Made by a program: the position numbers and the translations under genes. Positions 1,895 through 15,205 of a stretch of 15,205 nucleotides of DNA are shown here, piece by piece; position 1 is the stretch's first letter, and each line of letters starts with the position of its first letter. The DNA is taken from contig CAIZGA010000065.1 of the NCBI GenBank assembly GCA_903932385.1, positions 1-15,205 of the forward strand, written 5' to 3'. The DNA comes from an uncultured Acidobacteriota bacterium (GTDB taxonomy: Bacteria > Acidobacteriota > Terriglobia > Terriglobales > Acidobacteriaceae). The notes below the pieces were generated by a model. That model saw only the letters and a list, made by a program, of their open reading frames with translations, was not told where the DNA came from and did no database searches.

Positions 1895-3766
1895 TTATTG
1901 AATCACTCGCAGCGCTGGCTTCTCCGCGCCACTCTCATCGAAATGCTTGCGGATCTTCACTGCGACGCTCGCGCTCACTACGGCCGTCAGCGCATCCACA
2001 CTGGCCGCCTGTACATCGCGGAGGCTGCCAAAATGTTCCAGCAGTCTTACACGCGTGCGTGCTCCCACCCCGGGAATTTCCAACAATTCCGATTCCCTGT
2101 CGCGAATCTCGCGCCGCTTGCGATGGTACGTAACTGCAAATCGGTGTGACTCATCTCGCACCATCTGTACCAGCCGCAGCACTGGTGAACGCCGGTCCAA
2201 CACCACCGGATCCTCTTCCTGTCCGCTCACGTACAAAATCTCTTCGCGTTTGGCAATGCTCGCTAGCGGTTGTGTTGTCAGTCCAAGTTCCTCCAACGCA
2301 TCTGCTGCCGCATGTAGTTGCCCCAGCCCGCCGTCCACCAGCACTAAACTCGGCATTGCCTGCTGCTCAGACTGCACCCGCTTGTATCGCCGCAGTATCA
2401 CCTCATGCATCGATGCGAAATCATCCACGCCTTCTACCGTCTTAATTTTGAATTTGCGATATTCGGCCTTGCGCATTTCGCCGTCCTGCCATACCACCAT
2501 ACTGGCCACCGTCTCCGCGCCTTGAATATGAGAGATATCGAAGCATTCAATCCGCGTCGGCAACTCCGGCAGCATCAGCGCGTCCTGCAGCGATTCCTGT
2601 ATCGCCTGCATATTCGGCTGCATCACACGGAAGCGCTGGTCGAAAGAGTGTTTTGCGTTCTGGCTTGCAAGATCCACCAGACTGCGCTTTTCACCGCGCT
2701 GCGGCACGGCAATTTCAATCTTGTGCCCGGTACGTTCGCTCAGCGCATTCGCAAGCAACTCACGTTCATCAAACTCGACTGGCACATAAATATTTCGCGG
2801 AACATACATCTGGTCCAGATACATCTGCTTCAATAGCGCGGAGAAAAATAATCCCGGACTGAATTCTGCTATGCCGCCGCCATCTGCATCCGTCTCCATC
2901 AACTGCGGCATCTCTTCCCAGAAGAATTCCCGACGGTCCACAATTTTTCCGCCACGCAGGTGAAACAAATTCACCGCCAGCATAGCGTTCTCATAGTGGT
3001 AGCCGAATACATCGGCATCATCGCCCTCGGCCGCAGCAATTCGCTGCTTCTCATGCAGCTGATGCACGGTGTTGATCAGGTCGCGATACCGCGCCGCTAA
3101 TTCAAATTTCTCCTGCTCCGCAGCCTCAGTCATGCGCGCATGCAGAGTTGTTTCCAACTCCGTGCTGCGACCTTCCAGAAACATCTGCACATCACGCACT
3201 GCATCGGCATATGCGGCCGGAGTGGTCAGTCCCTCTACACACGGCCCCAGGCAGCGATGAATGTAGTACTGCAGGCACGCACGCGGATGATACCGCGACA
3301 AATCCACCTTGCAGCTAGGGATTAAAAAGCTGCGATGAATCAGGTCCACGATTCGATACGCCAGATTACCGGGGAAATATGGGCCGTAATATGCGCTGCC
3401 ATCTTTACGCAGTCGCCTCGTCACAAAAACTTTGGGATATCGGTCAGCTACAGTTAGCTTGATGTACGGATAGGTTTTGTCATCACGCAACAGAATATTG
3501 AACCGCGGCTTGCGCTGCTTGATTAAGTTATTTTCAAGCGCCAATGCCTCGTGCTCATTCGCCACCAGGATGTATTCAATATCCACAGCCTCGCGCATCA
3601 GCGAACCGGTCTTCGCATTCGCCTGCGACGACTCCAGAAAATACGAACGCACGCGGCTACGCAGGCTTTTCGCCTTGCCCACGTAAATCACTTCGCCTTC
3701 GGCGTTCTTGTACAGATACACGCCGGGCTGCGTGGGCAGTGTCCGAATTTTTTCGTGGAGGTCCAT
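1895..3766 (-). CDS. uvrC: UvrABC system protein C (dual-incision excinuclease)
   Basis: UvrC makes the 3' and 5' incisions on either side of a lesion held by UvrB. The protein (623 residues from ATG 3766) shows an N-terminal GIY-YIG nuclease (GVYLYKNAEG, IYVGKAKSLRSRVRSYF, catalytic Glu about residue 78 in ALALENNLIK). Four cysteines at about 152, 164, 172 and 176 have the spacing known for the UvrC iron-sulfur cluster. A UVR motif follows near 217-230, then the RNase H-like 5' nuclease (FDISHIQG, LVLVDGGLGQ, ESHRFAVTYHRKRR) and a C-terminal helix-hairpin-helix (LEIPGVGARTRVRLLEHFGS). An in-frame GTG at 3775 would add three residues. I chose ATG 3766 because MDLHEKIRTLPTQPGVY matches the usual family start; neither site has a clear Shine-Dalgarno. 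It converges on uvrB and all catalytic landmarks are intact. Confidence 0.97.
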   Translation of the reverse strand: MDLHEKIRTLPTQPGVYLYKNAEGEVIYVGKAKSLRSRVRSYFLESSQANAKTGSLMREAVDIEYILVANEHEALALENNLIKQRKPRFNILLRDDKTYPYIKLTVADRYPKVFVTRRLRKDGSAYYGPYFPGNLAYRIVDLIHRSFLIPSCKVDLSRYHPRACLQYYIHRCLGPCVEGLTTPAAYADAVRDVQMFLEGRSTELETTLHARMTEAAEQEKFELAARYRDLINTVHQLHEKQRIAAAEGDDADVFGYHYENAMLAVNLFHLRGGKIVDRREFFWEEMPQLMETDADGGGIAEFSPGLFFSALLKQMYLDQMYVPRNIYVPVEFDERELLANALSERTGHKIEIAVPQRGEKRSLVDLASQNAKHSFDQRFRVMQPNMQAIQESLQDALMLPELPTRIECFDISHIQGAETVASMVVWQDGEMRKAEYRKFKIKTVEGVDDFASMHEVILRRYKRVQSEQQAMPSLVLVDGGLGQLHAAADALEELGLTTQPLASIAKREEILYVSGQEEDPVVLDRRSPVLRLVQMVRDESHRFAVTYHRKRREIRDRESELLEIPGVGARTRVRLLEHFGSLRDVQAASVDALTAVVSASVAVKIRKHFDESGAEKPALRVIQ

Positions 3767-3844
3767 AGCCAGCACCGTGCGTCTGCTCTACCGCACGCAG
3801 TTCAAGTGTATCGCCGACAGCAGATGCAACGCTTCTACGCTGCC

Positions 3845-4103: not shown

Positions 4104-5078
4104 CTATTGCGAGAGAGGATTGGTCCCAGCCGGCTGCCCAAGCACGCCAATTCCAGCACCGATTTTTGGATGCTTTTTGAATAGGTGTCTCTGGATGTCC
4201 GGCCAAAACTCATTCAGAGTTCCGCCCACCGTTCCCTCGGCGGTCACTGTCAGTGCGCGCGTAATCGTCAACCCCAAACCGCGATCCGCCTGCGGATAAT
4301 AGGCATTAGAGATTCCGCCAGCAATGAAATTTCCCAATACGTTGGAATAATTCGGCTGCCACTTTCCATTGTCACCTTTACAAATCACCGTAGTGGAGAC
4401 CACATAAAACAAGCGGTGCCGAAAGCTCCCTTTGCCCATACGAAAATATCGAGGATCCTGCTTCAGCAGGATTGGTAGAAGGGCATTTCCAATGAGGTTA
4501 CCGTCAAATGTATCTGCGTATGACGCACCCCATCTTTTGAAATATCCAGGCGGCCCCCATCCGTATCCTGAAAAATCTCCCTCCAACTCGCTCACTCCCG
4601 CATCCAGCGCCGTCGTAGCAATCACGATGTAATCAAAATTCGTATGCATGGTCAGGCTCAGCTTCTGTGAGGCCGTAAGTGGCGGCGCTGTTGGATCATA
4701 AGCCACATTGAATGCGGGCAAAACTCCCGCTATCCTTTGATGCTCTTCGGCCTTAAGCTCCTCCGGCGTGGTCACTCTTGGCTTTCCTGTCGATGCATCG
4801 TCGTCTGTGGGGTCAGCATGCGTGCTGCTCGAAGTAGAGCTCCCACTGGTCGGCGTACTGCTCTGCGCGGCCCGCAACTCTGCAATCAATAAAGGTTGCG
4901 GCTCTGGCGCTGAAGGTAGCTCCTTCGCTGTGTCAATTGATACGATCGCACTTTGTTGTGTCGTTATTGCTGCGTCCGGCGTCAATTCATCGGCTGTCGG
5001 CGCTGCCTGTGCCCTACCAATACAGATGGAAAAAAGAATTGTGATGGCTGCAGTGTGCAATGAATACATTGATTTCAT
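4104..5078 (-). CDS. Secreted protein of unknown function, paralogue of the next gene upstream
   Basis: The 324-residue product begins with a Sec-type signal peptide (MKSMYSLHTAAITILFSICI, likely cut after GRAQA). A low-complexity Ser/Thr/Asp-rich linker covers roughly residues 35-100. The C-terminal 200 residues form the conserved module: QRIAGVLPAFNVAYD, APPLT, GWGPPGYFKRWGASYADTF, LLPILLKQDPRYFRMG, TTVICKGDNGKWQPNYSNVL and AGGISNAYYPQADRG. The gene at 5203-6357 carries the same module with the same motif order, so the two are tandem paralogues. I do not recognise a named domain or enzyme. The signal peptide and Gly/aromatic-rich segments suggest an envelope or outer-membrane location, but that is inference. 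ATG 5078 is the first in-frame start that gives a complete signal peptide; a purine-rich AGAAAG lies upstream at a long distance. No clear promoter was found in the 124-base gap before it. Confidence 0.85.
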   Translation of the reverse strand: MKSMYSLHTAAITILFSICIGRAQAAPTADELTPDAAITTQQSAIVSIDTAKELPSAPEPQPLLIAELRAAQSSTPTSGSSTSSSTHADPTDDDASTGKPRVTTPEELKAEEHQRIAGVLPAFNVAYDPTAPPLTASQKLSLTMHTNFDYIVIATTALDAGVSELEGDFSGYGWGPPGYFKRWGASYADTFDGNLIGNALLPILLKQDPRYFRMGKGSFRHRLFYVVSTTVICKGDNGKWQPNYSNVLGNFIAGGISNAYYPQADRGLGLTITRALTVTAEGTVGGTLNEFWPDIQRHLFKKHPKIGAGIGVLGQPAGTNPLSQ

Positions 5079-5202: not shown

Positions 5203-6357
5203 TCATGGCGCTTCGTCATTGATTTTTTCGCGTGACTTCGCCGAAGACAATCGCACCACTAAAAATTGCTGAATCATTCCATTCGCGATGCGTCCGCCCA
5301 GTCCAATCAATGCGTTATCCAATACCAGGCTGATTCCGCGATTGCTCTGTGGAAAATAAAGGTTCGAGACGGCACCTGCAACTAAATCTCCGCCAATGCT
5401 GGAATAATTCGGCTGTAGATGGCCATTGTCACCCTTGCAGATGATTGGCGTTTCCAGCGCATGCAGCAACCGCGACTTGGTTGTACCTGATTTCTGATAA
5501 AAGAATCGCGGGTCTTGATGCAGCAGCGATGGCAGCACTGCGCCTCCCACCAGAATGTCTGTAAACCCGCTAGCTGTATTCGCTCCGAAACGCTGGCCAT
5601 ATCCCTTCCACCCTTCCTGGTAGTCGGGATTGTGCGCCGCTTGATCTATCGTTGCCAGAAATGCCACACCGGCAATCGTCGCAGCGTCAAACGATGACCG
5701 CAGCGCAAGACTGAATTTCAGCTTCGTTGTCAGCGGTACTGCATTGCGGTCATACACCACATAGAAATTTGGAATCACGCCCAGCACTCGCTGGTCTTCT
5801 TCCACTTTCACCTGTTGCAATGCCAACTCATCACGCGTAGCCGCTGCTACAGTTGTAACCACCGCCTTCGGCCTCAGCACCAGGTCCGACAATCCTAAGA
5901 TCTGTCCCGACTGCAGAACAATCGCCTTAGACGTCCATGTGGTAAATCCATTCACCACTACTGTGATGTGATATGGCACGCTCGCTTTCACGCCGACGAA
6001 TTCAAAATACCCATACCCATCCGATGTTGTTGTATAGTGGTCAACCGGCGTCGGCCCGTCCAGCGAAATACTCGCGCCCGGCACAATTCCCTGATTCACA
6101 TCCACAACTGTGCCATGAATGCTGCCAGTCTGTTGCGTCTCCGTCACCATGGATGCCGGCTTGCTCACCGCCGTCTCCATCATTTCGGTCTGCGCCACCT
6201 CTGTTGACTGTAACTTTGCCACTACATCCACACGCGGTTGCGGCGCATCCAACACCGGCGACAACGCCATCCTGTTCTGTTGCGCACCGACTATTGGCAC
6301 ACTTAGCATAAGGATTGACGTCGCAATCAACTTCATTTTTCTACTATCAAATCTCAT
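5203..6357 (-). CDS. Secreted protein with carboxypeptidase-regulatory-like domain and unknown C-terminal module
   Basis: The product is about 384 residues from ATG 6357. A GTG at 6363 adds two residues. An ATG at 6336 would give a shorter and more typical signal peptide (MKLIATSILMLSVPIVGA, cut before QQ). Residues of about 77-165 form a carboxypeptidase-regulatory-like beta-sandwich (GSIHGTVVDVNQGIVPGASI, then TTTSDGYGYFEFVGV), a domain very frequent in acidobacterial surface and TonB-dependent proteins. The rest is the module shared with the downstream gene: QRVLGVIPNFYVVYD, GYGQRFGANTASGF, VLPSLLHQDPRFF, TPIICKGDNGHLQPNYS and AGAVSNLYFPQSNRG. No catalytic motif of a known enzyme is apparent. 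It is probably exported to the periplasm or outer membrane. It lies 153 bases beyond the end of hpnE, in an AT-rich gap that may hold its own promoter, so I do not treat it as part of the hopanoid operon. Confidence 0.85.
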   Translation of the reverse strand: MRFDSRKMKLIATSILMLSVPIVGAQQNRMALSPVLDAPQPRVDVVAKLQSTEVAQTEMMETAVSKPASMVTETQQTGSIHGTVVDVNQGIVPGASISLDGPTPVDHYTTTSDGYGYFEFVGVKASVPYHITVVVNGFTTWTSKAIVLQSGQILGLSDLVLRPKAVVTTVAAATRDELALQQVKVEEDQRVLGVIPNFYVVYDRNAVPLTTKLKFSLALRSSFDAATIAGVAFLATIDQAAHNPDYQEGWKGYGQRFGANTASGFTDILVGGAVLPSLLHQDPRFFYQKSGTTKSRLLHALETPIICKGDNGHLQPNYSSIGGDLVAGAVSNLYFPQSNRGISLVLDNALIGLGGRIANGMIQQFLVVRLSSAKSREKINDEAP

Positions 6358-6425
6358 TTTCACTCGAGGGTAGGGTGGGGGGTTAAAGTCTTACAGTTAG
6401 GCCGTTTAGCTGGAGTTTTGCGGAA

Positions 6426-6516: not shown

Positions 6517-7908
6517 TTACCCCAACAATTGCATAATCCCTGATGGATCCACATCCGGCTGCAGAATCGTTACCGGCGAATGCATTCCCCTGCAAACGGC
6601 CTCCGCCGCCAGATAGCCGCTGCGTGCTGCGCCTTCCATGGTCGATGGCCACTCAGTCCGTGTCCAATCGCCGGCAAAATACAGTCCCGGCCAAGGCGTA
6701 TCGGCCCCCTGCCGATATGCATCCAGCCCAGGGGTCGTCGAAAATGTTGCCCGTGCCTCTTTCAACACTGCAGATTGTTCCAGCTTGCACTTGGCGACAT
6801 CGGGGAAAAACATCTTCAACTCATCCAACGCCCGCTGCACTAATTCTTCACGGCCCATCTTCAAATGCGCATTCGCAGCACCAATCACCAGTTCCACATA
6901 ACTTCCTCGCGAGGGGTCGTCATTGCGGATCCGAGACTTGTGAAAGATCCATTGGTTCATCGTATCCAGCAGTGCGGCGTGATGCAGTTGCGTAAACTCG
7001 CGATCGAACCATAAATGCGTTGTCACAATCGCAGAGTGTGTCAGCCGTGCCATTGCATCCTCAATCTGCTTTCGCTCAGTCGACTCCGGCATCTGCGGCA
7101 GAAACTGTTGCACCTGTTCGAAGGAACCCGCCAGCACCACTGCGTCCATGTACCACTCGCGATTAGCCGTTCTCAGCCGCCATCTTCCATTCCAGGGAGC
7201 CAGTTCTTCCACTCCGGTACGCAGTATGATTTTGCCGCCGTACGCTGGAATCCGCATCGCCACCGAGCTGAATAAATCACTTAGTGGAATAGTCGGAATT
7301 CCCAGCCGACCACCGGCCACGGATTTCAGCAACAGTTCGCGGAAAACTTTAGCACCATAGCGTAACGAACAATTCTCCAGCGTGTCATTCAGCGTCACTG
7401 AGGTCGTTAATTCCCAGAACCTGCGGATGGCGTTCTTTGTCTGGCCGGTACGCTTCAGCCAGTCCGCCATGCTCTGGTTGTCATCCTGCGGCTGCGGCTT
7501 CATCCATTCCATCAGCCCGCGAGCAATGCCTACCTTATCTTCTGCACTTAGCATTGGAGCCTGCAGAAAATCAATGGCCGTGTGCAGCGGTGCAGGCATC
7601 CACGTTGGAGCGATGCGGCTGGCGCGTCCACCCGGCTCCAGAAACACCAGTTCGTTATACCAACGCACATAATCGTCCGCGCCGCACTCTGTCAGCAGAT
7701 GCATCAGATTGGTGCAGCAGCCCAGCAACACGTGCTGCGAATCCACCACGGTCTCGAGCGCAGGATGTTCGTATGAATATGCTCGCCCGCCAAGATACGG
7801 CTTGCGATCGAACAGGTAGACATGCGCCCCGCGTTTTGCCAATGCATGTGCCGCGGCAAGTCCGGCCACACCGCCGCCTATAACTGCCACATCGCCATGC
7901 AGCACCAT
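6517..7908 (-). CDS. hpnE: Hydroxysqualene dehydroxylase HpnE (FAD-dependent)
   Basis: HpnE is the flavoprotein that reduces hydroxysqualene to squalene in the HpnC-HpnD-HpnE route. It belongs to the phytoene-desaturase/amine-oxidase fold. The N-terminus has the dinucleotide-binding motif GGGVAG (residues 11-16), followed by FDRKPYLGGRAYSY with the acidic residue that holds the FAD ribose. The C-terminus has the FAD-closing motif PGLYFAGDWTRTEWPSTMEG and a helix GAARSGYLAAEAV. The frame is open up to an ATG at 7980 (487 residues), but that start would overlap hpnD by 64 bases and add a tail with no family counterpart. ATG 7908 begins eight bases after the hpnD stop, gives 463 residues and puts the Rossmann motif at the expected distance. 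It is the last gene of the hopanoid cluster here; no clear terminator was seen after its TAA. Confidence 0.93.
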   Translation of the reverse strand: MVLHGDVAVIGGGVAGLAAAHALAKRGAHVYLFDRKPYLGGRAYSYEHPALETVVDSQHVLLGCCTNLMHLLTECGADDYVRWYNELVFLEPGGRASRIAPTWMPAPLHTAIDFLQAPMLSAEDKVGIARGLMEWMKPQPQDDNQSMADWLKRTGQTKNAIRRFWELTTSVTLNDTLENCSLRYGAKVFRELLLKSVAGGRLGIPTIPLSDLFSSVAMRIPAYGGKIILRTGVEELAPWNGRWRLRTANREWYMDAVVLAGSFEQVQQFLPQMPESTERKQIEDAMARLTHSAIVTTHLWFDREFTQLHHAALLDTMNQWIFHKSRIRNDDPSRGSYVELVIGAANAHLKMGREELVQRALDELKMFFPDVAKCKLEQSAVLKEARATFSTTPGLDAYRQGADTPWPGLYFAGDWTRTEWPSTMEGAARSGYLAAEAVCRGMHSPVTILQPDVDPSGIMQLLG

Positions 7909-7916
7909 CTCTGTGC

Positions 7917-8807
7917 TCAACGTCCACCCCGCAGCAGCATCGACGCCATACCGCGTAGCAGGATTGCCGACTTCTTCCATGCCGGAACACTCACCCGCTC
8001 GCTGAATACATCAAACTTCGCGTCAATAATCTTTAACAGCAGCCCGCGATATATATTCACCAGCACCCACAGCGCCGGACGACTGTCTGCGTCAATCATC
8101 GGCAGCAGCTTCTCTGCCGACTCGTAATACTTCAGCGCGCGTTCGGATTCCATCTGCAGCAGGTTGTGCAGACCAACACTCATGGCTGCGCCACTTTTTA
8201 CTGTCAGAACATCTTCTTCACTCACACCAAACTTCTGAAGGTCTTCCAGCGGGAGATAGATTCGCCCTCTCTCGGCATCTTCCTTCACGTCTCGCAGAAT
8301 ATTCGTTAACTGAAACGCAATACCAGTCTCTTCAGCTAGTTTCTCCGCAGACGTATCTGTGTAACCAAAAACTCGAATGCAAACCAGTCCCACTACCGAT
8401 GCTACTAAGTAGCAATAGTGGTATAGCTCATCAAATGTCTTGTACGTCTGCGCACCGGCATTAGGATTCAGATCCATCGCTACGCCCTGCACCAGTTGTT
8501 CCAGCAAAGCATTTGAAATCGCAAACCTCCGCTGTGCATCGCGAACAGCAGTAAATACGGCGTCATTACTTTCGCCGCCGCTCTGCGTCGCGTGCCAGGC
8601 ATTTATCCACGCTTGCATGGTGTTGCGACGATCATCCAGCGTTTGCGTCTCATCATCGGAGATATCGTCTGCCCTCCGCATGAAGGCATAGATGGCATAC
8701 ATCGCATTCCGTTTCGCCTCGGGCAGCGCAAGAAATGCGTAGTAGAAGTTCTTCGCTTCACGCCGTGCAATTCCGCCGCAAACTTTATATGCCTGCTGGA
8801 TATTCAT
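7917..8807 (-). CDS. hpnD: Presqualene diphosphate synthase HpnD
   Basis: HpnD condenses two farnesyl diphosphates to presqualene diphosphate, the first committed step to squalene in this route. The 296-residue protein has the all-alpha prenyl-synthase signature: NFYYAFLALPEAKRNAMYAI (20-39), the first aspartate-rich motif DDISD (47-51), YCYLVASVVG near 131-140, and the second Mg-binding motif LTNILRDVKEDAERGRIYLP (167-186). YAFLALP and QLTNILRDVKED are the features that separate HpnD from HpnC. The frame is open further upstream to 9224, but only inside hpnC. The true start is ATG 8807, whose ATGA overlaps the hpnC stop by four bases and is preceded by GGGAG (8814-8818) at six bases. The neighbours hpnC and hpnE complete the squalene module. 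Confidence 0.95.
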   Translation of the reverse strand: MNIQQAYKVCGGIARREAKNFYYAFLALPEAKRNAMYAIYAFMRRADDISDDETQTLDDRRNTMQAWINAWHATQSGGESNDAVFTAVRDAQRRFAISNALLEQLVQGVAMDLNPNAGAQTYKTFDELYHYCYLVASVVGLVCIRVFGYTDTSAEKLAEETGIAFQLTNILRDVKEDAERGRIYLPLEDLQKFGVSEEDVLTVKSGAAMSVGLHNLLQMESERALKYYESAEKLLPMIDADSRPALWVLVNIYRGLLLKIIDAKFDVFSERVSVPAWKKSAILLRGMASMLLRGGR

Positions 8808-9796
8808 GCGCGTCTCCCGCTGAACATCATCCGCGCCCGCGCTACGCCAAGCTTTGCTAACGCCACACAAAGCAGTTGCATCTTTTTTACTTTCCCAACC
8901 ACAGGTCGCTCGCGCATAACATCGTATCCCTGTGATGCAATCGCATCCAGAACTGCCATACCACCGGCAACAATCAAGCCAAGCGTTGCCGCCAACTCGC
9001 CATCCACATGCGTAGTAATCTGCGAGCCGCGCTGCAGCATCACACGCACCCGAGCCACCAGCTCTTCCATCATCGCGCGAAAACCCGGCGTGAACTCCTG
9101 ATCCGCAATCTGCTGCTCCGTCACATCGTGCCGACGCATCGCGTCCTGCGGCAGATAAATTCTGCCAATCGCGTAATCGCGCACCACATCCTGGCAGAAA
9201 TTCGCGATCTGCAACCCTGTGCATACATCATCAGAGAGCAGTGCAGTAGCCTCATCATGGTAGCCGCAGATGCCCAGCACCAGTCGCCCCACGGGATTCG
9301 CTGAGTAGAACGAATACTGCACCAGTGAGTCCCAATCCGCATGACGCACTTTACTCTGGTCCATTTTGAATGCGGTTAGTAAGTCGTGGAATAATTTCCG
9401 CGGCAATTGACACGCAACTACTGTTTCCGCCAGCGCGACAAATACAGGATGACGAGAATTCTGCGGTGCGTCGTAGCACTCATCCAGCAGCGCGCCCCAC
9501 TCTTCCAACAGTTGCATGGCCACATCGCGGTCGCCAACTTCATCGCCAAGATCGTCAGAGATGCGGCAATACGCATACACGCTGGCAAAATGCGGCCGCA
9601 CCCGTTTGGGTAGTAGCCCCGTCATCACATGGAAATTTTCGTAGTGTGCACTGGCAAGTTTCGCGCAATAGGCACGCGCCTGTTCTATCGTTGGCCGCGT
9701 CATCGGCAGACGATATTCCACCGGTATGGCATCACTGCTTTCCAGCAGCATTGTATTTTTCTTAGCCTGTTCCTTCATGGACTCAGGCCCCTTCAT
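8804..9796 (-). CDS. hpnC: Hydroxysqualene synthase HpnC (squalene synthase-like)
   Basis: HpnC converts presqualene diphosphate to hydroxysqualene, which HpnE then reduces. The 330-residue protein shows the family block SAHYENFHVMTGLLPKRVRP (49-68; other HpnC proteins have ENFPVAS here), the first aspartate-rich motif DDLGDE (81-86), YSFYSANPVGRLVLGICGY (161-179) and the second motif ANFCQDVVRDYAIGRIYLP (198-216). The ENF block and FCQDVVRD identify HpnC rather than HpnD. ATG 9796 forms a 4-base ATGA overlap with the stop of the upstream dehydrogenase. A second in-frame ATG at 9778 has AAGGGG nine bases before it and would remove six residues, so the exact start is open. The family usually has about 270-300 residues, and the excess is N-terminal. 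Confidence 0.94.
   Translation of the reverse strand: MKGPESMKEQAKKNTMLLESSDAIPVEYRLPMTRPTIEQARAYCAKLASAHYENFHVMTGLLPKRVRPHFASVYAYCRISDDLGDEVGDRDVAMQLLEEWGALLDECYDAPQNSRHPVFVALAETVVACQLPRKLFHDLLTAFKMDQSKVRHADWDSLVQYSFYSANPVGRLVLGICGYHDEATALLSDDVCTGLQIANFCQDVVRDYAIGRIYLPQDAMRRHDVTEQQIADQEFTPGFRAMMEELVARVRVMLQRGSQITTHVDGELAATLGLIVAGGMAVLDAIASQGYDVMRERPVVGKVKKMQLLCVALAKLGVARARMMFSGRRA
8814..8818 (-). promoter_or_regulatory. Ribosome binding site of hpnD
   Basis: GGGAG lies six bases before the ATG at 8807, inside the end of hpnC. It fixes the hpnD start at the ATGA overlap rather than at the far upstream end of the open frame. Confidence 0.6.
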
Positions 9797-10851
9797 GGCA
9801 TGATGGCGGTTTTAATGTCCGGCCCATGCACGCCCACCGAACGCGTCAACATGCGATGGAAAACTTCCGGCAACTCCGTCAGGCTCGCATGCGCGGTGAT
9901 GCAGTCCGCTGCGTTAAATTTGCCGCCGGCAATCATCTCCAACGCACCGCGCGTTGTTGCCGGCGTGTGGTGGAAGCTCGCCTTCAGCGTAATTTCGTTG
10001 TAGTGGATGCGATTCGTATCCAACTCCACGCGTGTCTTTTCCGGCGGCCCACCAAAGAAATTCACTACGCCGCCCTTGCGTACCATGTCCACCGACCATT
10101 GCCACGTCATCGGCGTCGCCACGGCTTCAATCACAACATCGGCACCATGCTGCTGCGGAGTCAGTTCTCTCACGCCGGCAATCACGTCCTTGCCTTCCTG
10201 AATCTTCACCACACGCCGCGCGCCGAAACGTTTCGCCGTCTCCACCTGGTCCTCGCGTTTCACTACGGCAATCACGTCCACGCCCGCCAGGTGTGCGACA
10301 TGCATGAACATCAGCCCAATGGGCCCTGCGCCAATCACCACCATGCAGTCGCCGGCTGCGGTCCCAGTTTCCTCGTAGCCGTGCAGCACACATGCCAGCG
10401 GTTCTGTCAGCGATGCATGTTCAAACGGCACAGCATCCGGCAGCATCAGCGTATTCTTCGCCACGATTCGCGCCGGCACGCGCATGTATTCGGCATACGC
10501 CCCGTTGTTGAAGATCAAGTCATCGCAAAGATTGGGCTGGCCACGCAAACAGAAATAACATTTGTCGCAAGGCGCGGAATTAATCGGTACAACGCGATCA
10601 CCCACGCGGAAATTTTCTACGCCCTCGCCCAGCTCCGCCACAACACCGGCCATCTCATGCCCAAACTGTATCGGCGGCTTCAGCATCTTCGCGTGGTAGC
10701 CTCGGCGATACACTTTCAGATCCGTGCCGCATGTAGTTGCCGCACCCACCTTCACGATAATCTCGCCCGGCCCCGCTACCGGCACCGGCACCGTCTTTAT
10801 CCGCAAATCTTCTTTGCCGAAAAGCACGGCGGCTTTCATCATGTTGTCCAC
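9793..10851 (-). CDS. Zinc-dependent medium-chain alcohol/polyol dehydrogenase (hopanoid cluster, copy 1)
   Basis: A complete medium-chain dehydrogenase/reductase of 352 residues. The catalytic zinc ligands are C41 (TCGTD), H65-E66 (FGHEMAG) and E150 (LTEPLAC). The structural zinc lobe is C95, C98, C101 and C109 (PCDKCYFCLRGQPNLC). The Rossmann motif is VIGAGPIG (172-179). Where NAD-dependent relatives have Asp at the end of the second Rossmann strand, this protein reads AVVKRED, lacking the acid and adding Lys/Arg, which hints at NADP(H). The closest general families are sorbitol, threonine and galactitol-phosphate dehydrogenases; the substrate cannot be read from sequence. GTG 10851 is preceded by GGTGAGAG at nine bases. 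ATG 10842 is the alternative. It starts 54 bases after the other dehydrogenase and its stop overlaps hpnC by four bases, so a hopanoid role is likely by context. Confidence 0.9.
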   Translation of the reverse strand: MDNMMKAAVLFGKEDLRIKTVPVPVAGPGEIIVKVGAATTCGTDLKVYRRGYHAKMLKPPIQFGHEMAGVVAELGEGVENFRVGDRVVPINSAPCDKCYFCLRGQPNLCDDLIFNNGAYAEYMRVPARIVAKNTLMLPDAVPFEHASLTEPLACVLHGYEETGTAAGDCMVVIGAGPIGLMFMHVAHLAGVDVIAVVKREDQVETAKRFGARRVVKIQEGKDVIAGVRELTPQQHGADVVIEAVATPMTWQWSVDMVRKGGVVNFFGGPPEKTRVELDTNRIHYNEITLKASFHHTPATTRGALEMIAGGKFNAADCITAHASLTELPEVFHRMLTRSVGVHGPDIKTAIMP

Positions 10852-10860
10852 GCTAATATT

Positions 10861-10868
10861 CTCTCACC
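10861..10868 (-). promoter_or_regulatory. Ribosome binding site of dehydrogenase copy 1
   Basis: GGTGAGAG ends nine bases before GTG 10851 and eighteen before ATG 10842. The spacing favours the GTG start. It lies in the only sizeable gap (54 bases) between hpnA and hpnE. Confidence 0.5.
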
Positions 10869-10905
10869 GCAAGCCTCGTGAAATTTCTCACTATGCCTAC
10901 ACTTT

Positions 10906-11994
10906 CTACTGCATCTCAATCAAAATCTTCATCGAATCCGGGTGCGGATTCGATGCCAGTTCTATTGCTTCCACCGCCTGCTCCAATTTGAAGCGGTGCG
11001 ATATCAGCTTGGTCAGATTAAAGTCGCTGGTGTAACCATCCAGCACGATCCGTGCACCCTCGGCTTGAATCGTCGCCGACGAACTGTACGAACCCGTCAA
11101 CGACTTCTCATCCATACACACCACTGCCGGATCAAAATTTGAATCACCATGCTGCGTCTGCGCAAACAACACTACCGTTCCGCCGGGCCGCGTTGCATCC
11201 ATCGCCGTCTTGATTAGCGCATTACCGCCCACGGCCAGCAGCGTCACATCAGCGCCGCGGCCTTCGCTTGCATTATGCGCCGCAGCAATCACGTCTTTGC
11301 CGCCCGCATTTTTATCTGTCATGATTGGATGCTTCAAACCGTACTGCGCTGCAACTTTGTGACGCTCCGGATACAAATCCGATGTCAGCACCTTCGCGCC
11401 GGTCTTCGCCGCCAGTGCCGCCAGCGTAATTCCAATCGGCCCCTGCCCAATCACCAGCACGGTCTCATCCGGCTGCAGATTCAGTTTCTTGATGGCCTTC
11501 AGCGTTGTGTTCACCGGCTCAATAAATATTGCCTGCTCAAACGGCACGTCGTCCGGAATCTTCACGAGCCCTGTCGGCACTATCCAATCCATTACGCGAA
11601 TGTACTCGGCAAAACCGCCGCCGGAAGGTGCAAATCCTGCCGTGCATCCCACTTGCTTGTAGAGTTCGCATTGTGAAAACGTGTGCTTGCGGCAGTAATA
11701 GCAATCACCGCATGGCTGATGATGAAATGCCATCACGCGATCGCCTACTTTGTAGTCCTTCACGCCCGTGCCCACGGCGGCAATCACACCCGCCATCTCG
11801 TGCCCAAAAATCCTCGGGGCAGAGTGCGATCCGGAATGAATCTTCTTCAGATCGGTGCCGCAGATGCCGCAGCACGCAATCTTCACCAACACTTCGCCCG
11901 CGCCAATTTCCGGCACCGGCACTGTCTCCACCCGTACGTCGTTGATGCCGCGGTACACTGCCGCCCGCATCGTCTTCGGAATTGCCTCACTCAT
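10906..11994 (-). CDS. Zinc-dependent medium-chain alcohol/polyol dehydrogenase (hopanoid cluster, copy 2)
   Basis: A second medium-chain dehydrogenase, 362 residues from ATG 11994. Catalytic zinc ligands are C45 (GICGTD), H65-E66 (FGHEMAG) and E159 (FIEPVNT). The structural zinc cysteines are C95, C98, C101 and C109 (PCGDCYYCRKHTFSQC). The Rossmann motif is VIGQGPIG (181-188), and Asp206 in TSDLYPERHK sits where NAD-preferring enzymes bind the adenosine ribose, so NAD(H) is likely. It is a diverged relative of the next gene rather than a recent duplicate. The frame extends to a TTG at 12021, but ATG 11994 overlaps the hpnG stop by eight bases (ATGAGTGA) and has AGG at seven bases, indicating translational coupling to hpnG. 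Substrate unknown. Position directly after hpnG suggests action on the ribosylhopane side chain; a general polyol dehydrogenase is the alternative. Confidence 0.9.
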   Translation of the reverse strand: MSEAIPKTMRAAVYRGINDVRVETVPVPEIGAGEVLVKIACCGICGTDLKKIHSGSHSAPRIFGHEMAGVIAAVGTGVKDYKVGDRVMAFHHQPCGDCYYCRKHTFSQCELYKQVGCTAGFAPSGGGFAEYIRVMDWIVPTGLVKIPDDVPFEQAIFIEPVNTTLKAIKKLNLQPDETVLVIGQGPIGITLAALAAKTGAKVLTSDLYPERHKVAAQYGLKHPIMTDKNAGGKDVIAAAHNASEGRGADVTLLAVGGNALIKTAMDATRPGGTVVLFAQTQHGDSNFDPAVVCMDEKSLTGSYSSSATIQAEGARIVLDGYTSDFNLTKLISHRFKLEQAVEAIELASNPHPDSMKILIEMQ

Positions 11995-12736
11995 CTGGAT
12001 ACCTGTCTGGGATGTCGCCAAGTTGATTTACAAAATTTAAATCATGTACTTCACGGTTCATGAAATTGAAAATTGCAGAGGATAGATATTTCGCCCCGTC
12101 CTCACTTGCCTTTCCAAGCTTTGCAAGCGGCGCCCAATATTGTGGCCGCAATGCAATATAACAAAGAAACTTGCTCATCTGCATCTGTCCCATTTTATCG
12201 ATAAAACGGTTCAGGTCTGGCAATTTCAATCCAACTTCATCGGTCACAACTTTCATGCAGCAAACAGGTATATCGCGCATCTCCGCCAACCTCACTACGG
12301 CGGCGGACTCCATGTCCACTGCATCGGCGTTATAACTCGCAGCAAGCCGGCGCTTTTCACTCTCATCGGCCACGTGTGCTGCAGTCACCAGCACCGTGTT
12401 TTTCTCACGCTCTGCCAAGATGAACCGCTCGCCGGTCTGCGCATCCACCACTACATTTGGAATCAGGAAATTCCGCGCATAGATATTTTCCTGCAACGCA
12501 CCCACCCAGCCCATAGAGATAACGCCGTCCAATTTTCCACCAGCTTCCGCCGCTGCAAAGGCCCGCCTCGCTGCCTCTGCGCCCATACCTGCACACGCGG
12601 CAATCCACTCCACGCCTGTAGTTTCCATACGCCACAGATGCACTGTCTTCTGCGACGTTGGCACTTTTGTGAATCCACATTGAATCAGCGGCTTCAACTC
12701 GCCCGCCATGGCCGCGATAATGGCTACCCGCTTCAC
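11987..12736 (-). CDS. hpnG: Adenosylhopane nucleosidase/phosphorylase HpnG
   Basis: HpnG removes adenine from adenosylhopane to give (phospho)ribosylhopane, the second step of hopanoid side-chain building. The 249-residue protein is of the purine nucleoside phosphorylase / MTA-SAH nucleosidase fold. It starts MKRVAIIAAMAGELKPLI and has the glycine-rich base GMGAEAARRA (50-59) and GVISMGWVGAL (71-81). The ribose-binding DMESAAV (141-147, Glu143) and KVVTDE with Asp166, the expected base-contacting acid, complete the active site. The open frame reaches GTG 12784, but the better start is GTG 12736. It forms a 4-base GTGA overlap with the hpnA stop, has AGGGG seven bases before it, and gives the canonical N-terminus. 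Its own stop overlaps the next dehydrogenase by eight bases. Confidence 0.92.
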   Translation of the reverse strand: MKRVAIIAAMAGELKPLIQCGFTKVPTSQKTVHLWRMETTGVEWIAACAGMGAEAARRAFAAAEAGGKLDGVISMGWVGALQENIYARNFLIPNVVVDAQTGERFILAEREKNTVLVTAAHVADESEKRRLAASYNADAVDMESAAVVRLAEMRDIPVCCMKVVTDEVGLKLPDLNRFIDKMGQMQMSKFLCYIALRPQYWAPLAKLGKASEDGAKYLSSAIFNFMNREVHDLNFVNQLGDIPDRYPDE

Positions 12737-13743
12737 TGGCTTGCCCCTGCGTATGCTGGCGCGTATCCATTCGCCACGAACCACTCCATCGCATTTCTCA
12801 ACGCATCATCCACCGGCAGAACATTGAATCCAAGTTCCTTCACCGCTTTCGCAGACGAGGCAAACATCATCTTCTGCCCCATGCGAACTGCTTCCACCGT
12901 CGCGCGTGGTTCCTTGCCGCGAATCCGCCCAGTAATCCACTCATCAAAAAATGCGAACGTCATCGCCACCGAGTTCGCCACCTTCATCGTTGGAGAAGGC
13001 AGTCCTGTTAGCGCGGCCATGCGATCCAGAATCTGCTTCAGCGTCAAATTCTCTCCGCCTAGAATGTATCGTTCGCCTAGCCGACCGCGTTCCAGAGCCA
13101 CTCGATGCATCCGCGCCACTTCGGCCACATCCACTAGGTTCAATCCCGTTTCAACGTATGCCGGAAAATTTCTATTGAGAAAATCCACCACAATCCTACC
13201 CGTCGGCGTCGGCTTCGCGTCCATTGCTCCAATCGGAGTCGTCGGGTTCAGCACCATCACCTGTTGCCCGGCACGCGCCGCGGCTAGCGCAACTTCTTCC
13301 GCCATGAATTTAGACCGTTTGTAATGTCCCACCATGTCTGCCAACGAAACCGGCGTCTCTTCGTCAACCACCGTGCCGTCTTTTTTGAAGCCCATCGTCG
13401 CCACGCTCGAGGTGTAGACCACGCGCGGCACATTGCACTCGCGCGCCAGTTGCAGCAACACCCGTGTGCCTTCCACGTTGGCGCGATACATAGCCGCCGG
13501 GTCCGGCACCCACAGGCGATAATCCGCCGCAACATGCACCACTGCATCGCAGCCTGCAATCGCACTCCGCAACGCTTCGGGCTGCATCAGGTCGCCGACC
13601 ACCGTCTCCGCACGCAAACCTTCAATCCCCGCCAGGCTGCTCGTCCGCCTCGTCAGCAGCCGCAATTCCGCGCCCGCAGCGGCGTATTCACGCGCCACAT
13701 GGCTGCCCACAAATCCTGTCGCTCCGGTGAGAAATACTTTCAT
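12733..13743 (-). CDS. hpnA: Hopanoid-associated sugar epimerase/dehydrogenase HpnA
   Basis: HpnA is an extended short-chain dehydrogenase/reductase found in hopanoid clusters. It resembles dihydroflavonol reductases and nucleotide-sugar epimerases, and its exact reaction is not established to my knowledge. The 336-residue protein has the extended-SDR nucleotide motif TGATGFVG (6-13), DLMQPEAL, VVHVAADYRLW (68-78, a marker of the HpnA group), the active-site Ser in YTSSVATMG (110-118) and the catalytic pair Tyr141 / Lys145 (HYKRSKFMAEE). NPTTPIGAMDAKPTPTG follows, then the substrate-side domain. ATG 13743 has AGGA nine bases upstream. It is preceded by a strong terminator-like hairpin and followed by hpnG with a 4-base overlap. 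Confidence 0.94.
   Translation of the reverse strand: MKVFLTGATGFVGSHVAREYAAAGAELRLLTRRTSSLAGIEGLRAETVVGDLMQPEALRSAIAGCDAVVHVAADYRLWVPDPAAMYRANVEGTRVLLQLARECNVPRVVYTSSVATMGFKKDGTVVDEETPVSLADMVGHYKRSKFMAEEVALAAARAGQQVMVLNPTTPIGAMDAKPTPTGRIVVDFLNRNFPAYVETGLNLVDVAEVARMHRVALERGRLGERYILGGENLTLKQILDRMAALTGLPSPTMKVANSVAMTFAFFDEWITGRIRGKEPRATVEAVRMGQKMMFASSAKAVKELGFNVLPVDDALRNAMEWFVANGYAPAYAGASQ
12744..12748 (-). promoter_or_regulatory. Ribosome binding site of hpnG
   Basis: AGGGG lies seven bases before GTG 12736, within the last codons of hpnA. Together with the GTGA overlap it decides the hpnG start against the longer frame beginning at 12784. Confidence 0.65.
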
Positions 13744-13819: not shown

Positions 13820-14260
13820 TTAGTCCAGGGCTTCCGGCACCAGCATGATGTTCTTCTCGCCCGCGGCTTTTTTCTCCGCGTACATCTTCAGCCAGTTCTC
13901 GTAGTGCTTGCCCGCCGCAGTGTCGCGGCCGGTGAAGGCAATCGCCGCAATCTCCGCATACGGCAGCGTCAGCTTCTTCAGCACGCCGCGCGGCTGGTTG
14001 TTCAAAATCACACGCACTGCGGAGTCCGCCAGCGTCTTGCCCGGTTTGCGATCGTAGAGGTAGCCTTCCACGGTTTCGCCGTTCTTTTTCGTCAGCGTCA
14101 CATCGCCGCGATAATCAAACGCCTTTTCCAGCGCGATGCGAACTTCTTCCTCGCTCGCCAGCGTCGGTATCCAACCCTCCAGCGCTTCTTTCTCGCGGCC
14201 GGCGGCAATTTCAATATCGTCTGCGTTGGTAATCTTTTTTTCTTCCGTCAAAGTTGTCAT
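13820..14260 (-). CDS. Conserved-looking protein of unknown function between hpnH and hpnA
   Basis: A 146-residue soluble protein without signal peptide or membrane segment. The N-terminal 35 residues are charged and probably helical or disordered. A likely amphipathic helix (EEEVRIALEKAFDYRG, about 37-52) follows. Next comes an apparent small beta fold: VTLTKKNGETVEGYLYDR, AVRVILNNQP, KKLTLPYAEIAAIAF. It ends with GRDTAAGKHYENWLKMYAEK (110-129). The alternation of short strands with a Gly-Tyr turn recalls Sm-like or small beta-barrel folds, but I cannot assign a family and no catalytic residues stand out. It begins two bases after the hpnH stop (TAAGGATG), so it is almost surely cotranscribed with hpnH. 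Its place between hpnH and hpnA suggests a hopanoid-related accessory or regulatory role, which is inference only. Confidence 0.85.
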   Translation of the reverse strand: MTTLTEEKKITNADDIEIAAGREKEALEGWIPTLASEEEVRIALEKAFDYRGDVTLTKKNGETVEGYLYDRKPGKTLADSAVRVILNNQPRGVLKKLTLPYAEIAAIAFTGRDTAAGKHYENWLKMYAEKKAAGEKNIMLVPEALD

Positions 14261-14262
14261 CC

Positions 14263-15205
14263 TTAGTCGCCGCTCACTTCCTGCAGCTCGCTCTGCTTGG
14301 CCTTGCCGTCAATCTGTACCAACGGCGTTGCGTGTGCCGGCTTCCACTCATTCAAAAGTTTCGTCGCACTGTCATCCGGATACAACGCACCCATGTACGC
14401 CTTCGCCTGATGGATGAAACCTTTCAGTGATCCGAAGCCGAAATCCACTGCCGTCGCTTCATGCCCGCTGTGCACCATGCAATTCGCGCAACGAGGATTA
14501 CCACTGGCCGCGCCGTAATTCGCCCACTCGGTTTCCTGCATCAATTCTTCAAATGTGTCGGCGTACCCGTCCTGCAGCAGGTAGCATGGCTTCTGCCAGC
14601 CAAAGATGTTGTAGGTCGGCATGCCCCACGGCGTGCACTCAAAGTTCTTCAGCCCCATCAGGTACTCAAGAAACAGCGGGTGCGCGTTGAAACGCCACTC
14701 TTTTTTGCGGTTCGACAAAATCGCGCGGAAGAGTTTGCGCGAACGTGCCTTGCCCAGAAAGTGCGTCTGGTCCGGGGCCTTCTCATACGTGTAGCCGGGC
14801 GAGAGCATCATGCTCTCCACGCCAATCTCCATCATCTCGTCAAAGTGCGCACGGACGCTGTTCGGGTCGGCGCCGTCAAACAGTGTCGTGTTGGTAGTCA
14901 CGCGGAAGCCGCGCTTCACCGCTTCGCGAATGCCCTCCACGGCCAGATCGTACCCGCCTTCGCGGCACACGCTCATGTCGTGGTGCTCACGCTGTCCATC
15001 CACATGCACGCTGAAGGAGAGATACTTGCTCGGCGTAAACAGATCCAGCTTTTCTTTCAGCAGCAGCGCATTGGTGCACATGTACACATATTTCTTTCGC
15101 GCCACCAGACCGGCCACAATCTCCGGCATCTGCGGATGCAGCAGGGGCTCGCCGCCCGGGATCGACACCATCGGCGTCCCGCACTCCTCCACTGCCTTGA
15201 AGCAC
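14263..15205 (-). CDS. hpnH: Adenosylhopane synthase HpnH (radical SAM), 5' partial
   Basis: HpnH is the radical S-adenosylmethionine enzyme that joins the 5'-deoxyadenosyl radical to diploptene, giving adenosylhopane, the first step toward extended (C35) hopanoids. The frame is open to the right edge of the window (CFKAVEECGTPMVSIPGGEP), so the N-terminal part with the CxxxCxxC cluster motif lies outside. About 313 C-terminal residues are visible. They include the SAM-binding GGEPLLHP, YVYMCTNALLL, SFSVHVDGQREHHD and TTNTTLFDG of the radical SAM barrel. The C-terminal region typical of HpnH (DUF3463) has CTPWGMPTYNIFGWQKPCYL and the cysteine pair in RCANCMVHSGHEATAVDFGF. GTG 15192 is internal. 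The stop TAA lies two bases before the following small gene. Identification is confident; the start cannot be seen. Confidence 0.95.
   Translation of the reverse strand, partial: CFKAVEECGTPMVSIPGGEPLLHPQMPEIVAGLVARKKYVYMCTNALLLKEKLDLFTPSKYLSFSVHVDGQREHHDMSVCREGGYDLAVEGIREAVKRGFRVTTNTTLFDGADPNSVRAHFDEMMEIGVESMMLSPGYTYEKAPDQTHFLGKARSRKLFRAILSNRKKEWRFNAHPLFLEYLMGLKNFECTPWGMPTYNIFGWQKPCYLLQDGYADTFEELMQETEWANYGAASGNPRCANCMVHSGHEATAVDFGFGSLKGFIHQAKAYMGALYPDDSATKLLNEWKPAHATPLVQIDGKAKQSELQEVSGD

Follow-up and report, generated by a model that had tools for sequence, protein, structure and literature searches.

A conserved pair of zinc dehydrogenases in the hopanoid operon of Acidobacteriota and a candidate for the reduction of ribosylhopane

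Introduction

A stretch of 15,205 nucleotides from an uncultured bacterium of the Acidobacteriaceae (contig CAIZGA010000065.1 of the assembly GCA_903932385.1; hereafter, the window) carries two genes of zinc-dependent medium-chain dehydrogenases/reductases (MDR) within an operon of hopanoid synthesis. We call them MDR-G and MDR-C after their neighbors hpnG and hpnC. The layout of genes around both is conserved in Acidobacteriota, and it is likely that the pair has a role in extended hopanoids. In this pathway, HpnH makes adenosylhopane, and HpnG releases ribosylhopane from it. We tentatively propose MDR-C as the reductase of ribosylhopane, with a substrate, direction and product that we infer. 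The initial annotation of this DNA had named both dehydrogenases as candidates for the reduction and preferred the copy coupled to hpnG. Its statement that no enzyme is assigned to this step agrees with the accessible part of a paper of November 2025 (PMC12583986), where the enzyme converting ribosylhopane to bacteriohopanetetrol (BHT) is still called not established.

The linkage of these genes was partly published in 2017. In the accessible text of Sinninghe Damsté et al. (PMC5462960), a gene called ug1 follows hpnA-hpnG, ug2 precedes hpnC, ug3 follows hpnH, and no function is given to them. According to this text, ug2 encodes a Zn-binding alcohol dehydrogenase of ~350 amino acids, is present in every species of subdivisions 1 and 3 (SD1 and SD3), and is tied to the squalene genes. 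As far as that text goes, ug1 is not identified as an MDR, whereas the window gene in this slot is one. The published order, hpnA-hpnG-ug1 and ug2-hpnC-hpnD-hpnE, matches that of the window. Judging by gene order, ug1 is probably MDR-G, ug2 is probably MDR-C, and ug3 is probably an open reading frame (ORF) of 146 amino acids. What is new here is that the MDRs form a pair, that their cofactor signatures are split, and that MDR-C can be told apart from HpnC by its distribution. A literature search at the level of titles and abstracts, with most subscription journals outside its reach, found no assignment of function to these MDRs.

Results and Discussion

To describe the linkage, genome contigs were scanned with the MDR-C profile, and the best 80 of 571 confirmed matches were used. 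The handles G, C, L and f below denote genomes, contigs, loci and families. The labels of these loci are acidobacterial apart from two Rhodanobacteraceae and one plain "bacterium". This set was collected via MDR-C and therefore cannot count genomes that lack it. The 3′ neighbor of MDR-C is hpnC in 74 loci (in one of them a fused hpnC-hpnD), hpnD in 3 and the contig end in 1; two loci have no gene within 1.5 kb on this side (L171, and L188 with a more distant hpnC). On the 5′ side, MDR-G is the neighbor in 51 loci, no gene lies within 1.5 kb in 25, and the contig ends in 4. It turned out that hpnG stands directly before MDR-G in 50 of the 51 loci. Because of these 50 of 51 loci and the 74 of 80 with hpnC after MDR-C, the layout is not chance. 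The initial annotation had held that sporadic linkage to hpn genes would speak against its proposal; the linkage is instead conserved across many genera. In two genomes (G032 and G029), the cluster is divided exactly between the MDRs, so that MDR-G is found with hpnH-hpnA-hpnG and MDR-C with hpnC-hpnD-hpnE. In two loci of f37 (L105 and L127), no gene occupies the place of hpnG between hpnA and MDR-G; all 11 f37 genomes examined have a weak HpnG-like gene at another site.

Some loci of this set are unusual in other respects. In L185 (9801-11759), one frame of ~1.9 kb directly after MDR-C matches both hpnC and hpnD. This is the apparent fusion mentioned above, and it was not counted as lacking hpnC. 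The two loci labelled Rhodanobacteraceae (L143 and L155) carry MDR-C-hpnC-hpnD-hpnE with an MDR-C 65–67% identical to the window protein, and they probably come from mislabelled bins.

We determined the co-occurrence of the genes in a phylum sample of 247 Acidobacteriota genomes, which are the source genome and others at least 85% complete. Matches of at least 450 bits were taken as MDR-C orthologs and matches of at least 240 bits as any C-type gene, minus G112 and G166, whose matches score higher with the G profile. HpnH is above its cut-off in 65 of the 247 genomes, and MDR-C orthologs are present in 43. The orthologs occur in 39 of 65 genomes with HpnH vs. 4 of 182 in which it was not detected (G159, 93% complete; G283, 88%; G262, 100%; G177, 99%). 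Any C-type gene occurs in 56 of 65 and 8 of 182 genomes, respectively. At the family level, the association is 8 of 15 families with HpnH against 3 of ~59 without it (p 5e-5), the total number of families being an approximate figure. MDR-C is present in each of the 42 genomes that have an MDR-G ortholog. The reverse case, an MDR-C ortholog alone, is found only in G177, and MDR-G without MDR-C was not seen in this sample.

These genomes make it possible to separate MDR-C from its neighbor hpnC. HpnC is above its cut-off in 71 genomes. Among them, MDR-C orthologs are present in 29 of the 35 genomes with HpnH vs. 1 of the 36 without it. The initial annotation had allowed that the second copy acts at the level of squalene. 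Because MDR-C tracks HpnH in this way, such a role is unlikely; MDR-C also stands before hpnD with no adjoining hpnC in three loci (L138, L157 and L163). Thus, in contrast to ug2, which the accessible text of PMC5462960 links to the squalene genes, MDR-C is linked here to HpnH and not to HpnC. The same genomes bear on the idea that the MDRs are not specific to hopanoids, being polyol or sugar dehydrogenases of general function that the operon carries along. This idea is consistent with the tandem pairs of G-type and C-type genes in f33, f40, f42, f47, f53, f55 and f68 that have no hpn gene in the fetched stretch, and with the C-type genes of G177 and G262, in which HpnH was not detected. However, the linkage is kept over many genera, and any C-type gene is present in 34 of 35 HpnC-positive genomes with HpnH vs. 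1 of 36 without it. We consider this explanation very unlikely.

A closer sample consisted of 61 genomes of the class, namely the source genome and 60 relatives with a completeness of at least 80%. HpnH is above its cut-off in 44 of them, HpnG was found in 42, MDR-C in 42, MDR-G in 41 and HpnJ in 43. With a single-sequence search, the genomes with MDR-C and those with HpnG are the same 42. This identity depends on the search, since the single-sequence search for HpnG missed a weak match in G058. The HpnG profile search covered 23 chosen genomes. MDR-C is therefore present in 42 of 42 class genomes with HpnG, or in 42 of 43 if the weak match is counted. No MDR match at E ≤ 1e-60 was found in any class genome without HpnH. 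HpnH without MDR-C occurs in two class genomes (G008 and G058). In G053 (91% complete), the genes hpnH, hpnA, hpnG, MDR-C and hpnC are consecutive (L070), and MDR-G was not found. The genome G008 seemed suitable as a natural test but is uninformative, as neither HpnG nor HpnC nor either MDR was found in it. In its locus L068 (8800-10676), hpnH and the 146-amino-acid ORF are followed by translations that resemble transposases of insertion sequences.

Both window proteins belong to the zinc-dependent MDR superfamily. They have the two domains, the catalytic ligands and the structural lobe with four cysteines that define it. In MDR-G, the ADH_N (PF08240) and ADH_zinc_N (PF00107) domains score 94 and 59 bits, and in MDR-C 101 and 87 bits, all above the Pfam cut-off. 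Residues were counted in alignments of 94 G-type and 121 C-type proteins, from which shorter matches had been dropped; these counts supersede a regular-expression count (96 G and 124 C, with 2 and 16 unmatched). The catalytic ligands of MDR-G (Cys45, His65, Glu66 and Glu159) and its four structural Cys are present in 94 of 94 proteins. The catalytic Cys41 of MDR-C is present in 119 of 121 proteins (Asp in 2), and the remaining zinc ligands in 121 of 121. One of the two proteins with Asp in place of the catalytic Cys is that of G052 (L075, 11680-12723).

The fold models have a mean pLDDT (predicted local distance difference test) of 89.7 for MDR-G and 90.2 for MDR-C. Among the best 50 matches listed for the models are polyol, threonine and butanediol dehydrogenases, with an identity of at most 32%. 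The polyol (sorbitol/ketose) dehydrogenases, such as PDB 1e3j and 3qe3, appear to have the same MDR fold (template modelling score 0.81–0.86). They share with the window proteins the Cys/His/Glu/Glu catalytic set and the four-Cys structural zinc, whereas the identity is at most 28%, and the window MDRs differ by their context of lipid-pathway genes. L-threonine 3-dehydrogenase (TIGR00692; PDB 2dfv and 2d8a), the curated family nearest to MDR-C, shares the fold at an identity of at most 31%. Its equivalog cut-off of 458 bits is reached neither by MDR-C (180) nor by MDR-G (141). The curated family nearest to MDR-G is the scyllo-inosose 3-dehydrogenase IolM (NF041097; cut-off 450 bits), to which MDR-G scores 163 and MDR-C 158.5 bits. 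Profile searches of PDB gave no match at E ≤ 1e-60, and ordinary phmmer searches listed general MDR relatives (best 60 of 213 per query). Both proteins resemble polyol and threonine dehydrogenases, which agrees with the polyol type named in the initial annotation, and none of the curated families listed for either protein is matched above its cut-off. We looked for orthology to a characterized sugar or threonine dehydrogenase and found none.

Of 8,000 candidates scored in a protein-wide search, 7,990 reached E ≤ 1e-70, and the names given among the 120 listed are generic (zinc-binding dehydrogenase, zinc-dependent alcohol dehydrogenase, L-iditol 2-dehydrogenase). This search carries no gene context and was kept out of the counts. 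Two database proteins (P0001 and P0017) contain parts of MDR-G in frame with a full MDR-C; these could be genuine fusions or artefacts of a frameshift.

An acidic residue at the end of strand beta-2 is the usual NAD signature, and Lys or Arg at the cofactor site is the usual signature of NADP. In the hopanoid lineage, the end of beta-2 of MDR-G is acidic in 94 of 94 proteins (Asp in 93, Glu in 1; Asp206 in the window). At the cofactor site of MDR-C, Lys or Arg is found in 121 of 121 proteins, in one with a preceding Asp, and the window protein has VVKR after beta-2. By these signature residues, the two enzymes would be of opposite cofactor types, MDR-G of the NAD type and MDR-C of the NADP type. 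This bears on the initial preference for MDR-G as the ribosylhopane reductase, with some other function for MDR-C. The position after hpnG in nearly all loci of the linkage set speaks for MDR-G, and so does the fact that it remains with hpnH-hpnA-hpnG in the split clusters. However, its signature is of the NAD type throughout, it was not found in G053 beside an otherwise intact row of genes, and an f40 locus (L095) has no G-type gene beside the C-type gene. The conserved linkage upholds the pair as candidates for the reduction, and MDR-G as the reductase is unlikely.

We also assessed the history of the family with a quick tree of 74 proteins (86 rows cut to 72, plus 2 PDB rows) with SH-aLRT (Shimodaira–Hasegawa-like approximate likelihood ratio test) support. 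The 14 omitted rows belong to ten loci (L006, L008, L010, L079, L085, L086, L106, L132, L134 and L139). The place of several paralogs and of both PDB rows, all on long branches, is unsure. The G-type proteins (support 96) and the C-type proteins (support 99) form sister clades. PDB 1e3j lies outside them, with an unsure placement. Each clade consists of three mirrored groups: that of the hopanoid operon, that of f40/f42/f68/f74 and that of f33/f53/f55. In the latter two groups, most members stand in tandem pairs, and the stretch fetched around these contains no hpn gene; in L095, a C-type gene stands alone, and the contigs of L091 and L099 are too short (3–4 kb) for a judgement. The hopanoid-operon group also includes genes outside the operon, which are the f47 pairs L102 and L103 and the lone L093 of G177. 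Because the clades are mirrored and include pairs without hpn genes, the tandem pair is probably older than its location in the operon. No common partner of the non-hopanoid pairs was found among 10 scanned neighbors, where simple ORF calling is unreliable in high-GC contigs.

The pair might also work as a hydrogen-borrowing epimerase. In this case, the NAD-type MDR-G would form a ketone by oxidation of a side-chain carbinol (such as C34), and the NADPH-type MDR-C would re-reduce it, with the opposite stereochemistry or as a driving step. The mirrored lineages of an old tandem pair, the opposite cofactor signatures within the hopanoid lineage, and the predicted fold of the polyol-dehydrogenase type are consistent with it. 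Against it, MDR-C occurs without MDR-G in G053, the C-type proteins of the f33/f53/f55 lineage have Asp at the cofactor site, and the literature search, within its reach, found no report of the stereochemistry of acidobacterial BHT. We regard the epimerase as rather improbable. A broader version is that an ancient module of an NAD-type and an NADP-type MDR, passed on in tandem across Acidobacteriota, was recruited to hopanoids, where it would reduce ribosylhopane to BHT and also oxidize and re-reduce a side-chain carbinol, thus setting its stereochemistry. This is a still more distant prospect.

Our preferred reading is that both genes are lineage-retained parts of the side-chain pathway of extended hopanoids (bacteriohopanepolyols) in Acidobacteriota of the Terriglobia type. 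Most likely, MDR-C would use zinc and NADPH to reduce ribosylhopane in its open-chain form, turning the C35 aldehyde into the primary alcohol of BHT. MDR-G might be a partner of the NAD(H) type that performs another redox reaction on this polyol side chain, perhaps the oxidation of a secondary carbinol. MDR-C is the better candidate for the reductase because it is of the NADP type, tracks HpnG and HpnH instead of HpnC, and can occur without MDR-G. The reduction of ribosylhopane in cell-free preparations of M. organophilum reportedly used NADPH. By column position, Table 2 of PMC5462960 gives hpnO as absent from 9 of 20 SD1 genomes, one of them that of Terriglobus roseus DSM 18391. This strain would therefore need the reductive branch, and it has an MDR-C-hpnC-hpnD-hpnE locus (L160).

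A genus of f40 (G143, G169 and G209) has both HpnH and a C-type gene in all three genomes. Its contig arrangement resembles, we presume, that of Chloracidobacterium. L095 of G143 is the single locus of this genus that was read. According to the accessible part of PMC5462960, C. thermophilum B makes BHT, and ug2 is absent from C. thermophilum; in contrast, these Chloracidobacterium-like genomes carry a distant C-type gene.

A number of observations weigh against MDR-C as the reductase. Sorbitol-type MDRs usually act on secondary carbonyls. The signature residues of the C-type are common to lineages with and without HpnH. The eight genomes with a C-type gene and no detected HpnH include G262 and G177, in which neither HpnH nor HpnG was found. 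In G118 (f47), the pair of MDR orthologs follows a gene of proline dehydrogenase (L102, 8581-11614) with no hpn genes adjoining, and hpnH-hpnA-hpnG and hpnC-hpnD-hpnE are on other contigs. G058 has HpnH, HpnJ and the weak HpnG-like profile match (75.6 bits) but no MDR ortholog. The three f40 genomes have a more distant G-like MDR elsewhere (224–226 bits to the G profile). Shared ancestry inflates the co-occurrence counts. Finally, 9 of the 65 phylum genomes with HpnH have no C-type gene at all (G008, G086, G111, G122, G139, G165, G243, G276 and G287), and in six of these hpnH-hpnA-hpnG are kept together (L116-L119, L122 and L126). A single reductase shared by all lineages would be present wherever HpnH and HpnG are, and this is not what we observe. 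Because of these nine genomes, MDR-C is at most a lineage-specific reductase.

The same six loci bear on HpnA, a short-chain dehydrogenase/reductase (SDR) that the accessible text of PMC5462960 proposes as a possible catalyst of the conversion of ribosylhopane to BHT; the MDRs would then be accessory. In these loci, hpnA accompanies hpnH-hpnG in genomes without C-type MDRs, and in the window hpnA overlaps hpnG. On the other hand, L115 has hpnH-hpnG with hpnA not detected. HpnA as the reductase seems rather improbable to us.

It is also possible that the MDRs serve the tailoring of the head group (the HpnI/HpnJ branch, with redox of a cyclitol or an amino sugar) instead of the formation of BHT. 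HpnJ is present in every class genome with HpnH except G023, and in 41 of the 42 with MDR-C, which again counts against MDR-C as the reductase. In SD1 and SD3 species, hpnI and hpnJ are present and hpnK is missing, as far as the accessible part of PMC5462960 goes. The best NCBIfam match of MDR-G is IolM, yet far under its cut-off. However, G023 has both MDRs without HpnJ, and G008 and G058 have HpnJ without MDR orthologs. We consider head-group tailoring unlikely, and MDR-C as a reductase of ribosylhopane remains our preferred, tentative reading.

The operon of the window is read from the minus strand in the order hpnH, the 146-amino-acid ORF, hpnA, hpnG, MDR-G, MDR-C, hpnC, hpnD and hpnE (Table 1). 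The ORF positions, Pfam domains and zinc motifs bear out the initial description of two complete zinc MDRs between hpnG and hpnC, and its overlaps of 8 bases (MDR-G/hpnG) and 4 bases (MDR-C/hpnC) are exact. In NCBIfam, HpnA, HpnC, HpnE and HpnH pass the cut-off, and HpnD and HpnG are best matches under it. The hpnG of the window is divergent in sequence. Since its TIGR03468 score is under the cut-off, it is named also by position and conservation. The source contig is G000:C65 in our numbering, and the genome has 2.9 Mb in 687 contigs and is 76.7% complete.

Table 1. Genes of the hopanoid operon in the window.
Feature	Position	Strand	Description
hpnH	14263..15204	-	adenosylhopane synthase; NCBIfam above cut-off; 5′ end truncated by the window edge
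146-aa conserved ORF	13820..14260	-	no match in Pfam and NCBIfam; probably ug3
hpnA	12733..13743	-	SDR, "hopanoid-associated sugar epimerase"; NCBIfam above cut-off; 4-base overlap with hpnG
hpnG	11987..12736	-	phosphorylase, should release ribosylhopane; TIGR03468 78 bits, cut-off 187
MDR-G	10906..11994	-	zinc MDR, 362 aa, start ATG 11994; copy 2 of the initial annotation; probably ug1
MDR-C	9793..10851	-	zinc MDR, 352 aa, start GTG 10851; copy 1 of the initial annotation; probably ug2
hpnC	8804..9796	-	NCBIfam above cut-off; 4-base overlap with MDR-C
hpnD	7917..8807	-	best NCBIfam match, 251 bits, cut-off 278.6
hpnE	6517..7980	-	NCBIfam above cut-off

The 146-amino-acid ORF is found 3′ of hpnH also in many loci of Acidobacteriaceae and in L080 (f7). 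Beyond hpnE, two adjoining minus-strand ORFs of 324 and 386 amino acids (4104-5078 and 5203-6363) have C-terminal halves similar by eye and are apparently paralogous. Beside the hopanoid operon lie two convergent ORFs (2-1891 and 1895-3775), whose translations resemble, by eye, uvrB and uvrC.

Conclusions

BHT is a widely used bacterial biomarker. Two genes that have been without a function since 2017 become ranked candidates for its side-chain pathway, and the favorite moves from the gene on the hpnG side to the one on the hpnC side. The results argue against the squalene role suggested by the position of MDR-C, and they predict a different enzyme in some other lineages. If the pair is indeed an ancient module recruited to hopanoids, improbable as we hold this to be, it would fill the reduction step and give a genetic basis for the BHT isomers used as biomarkers in sediments.

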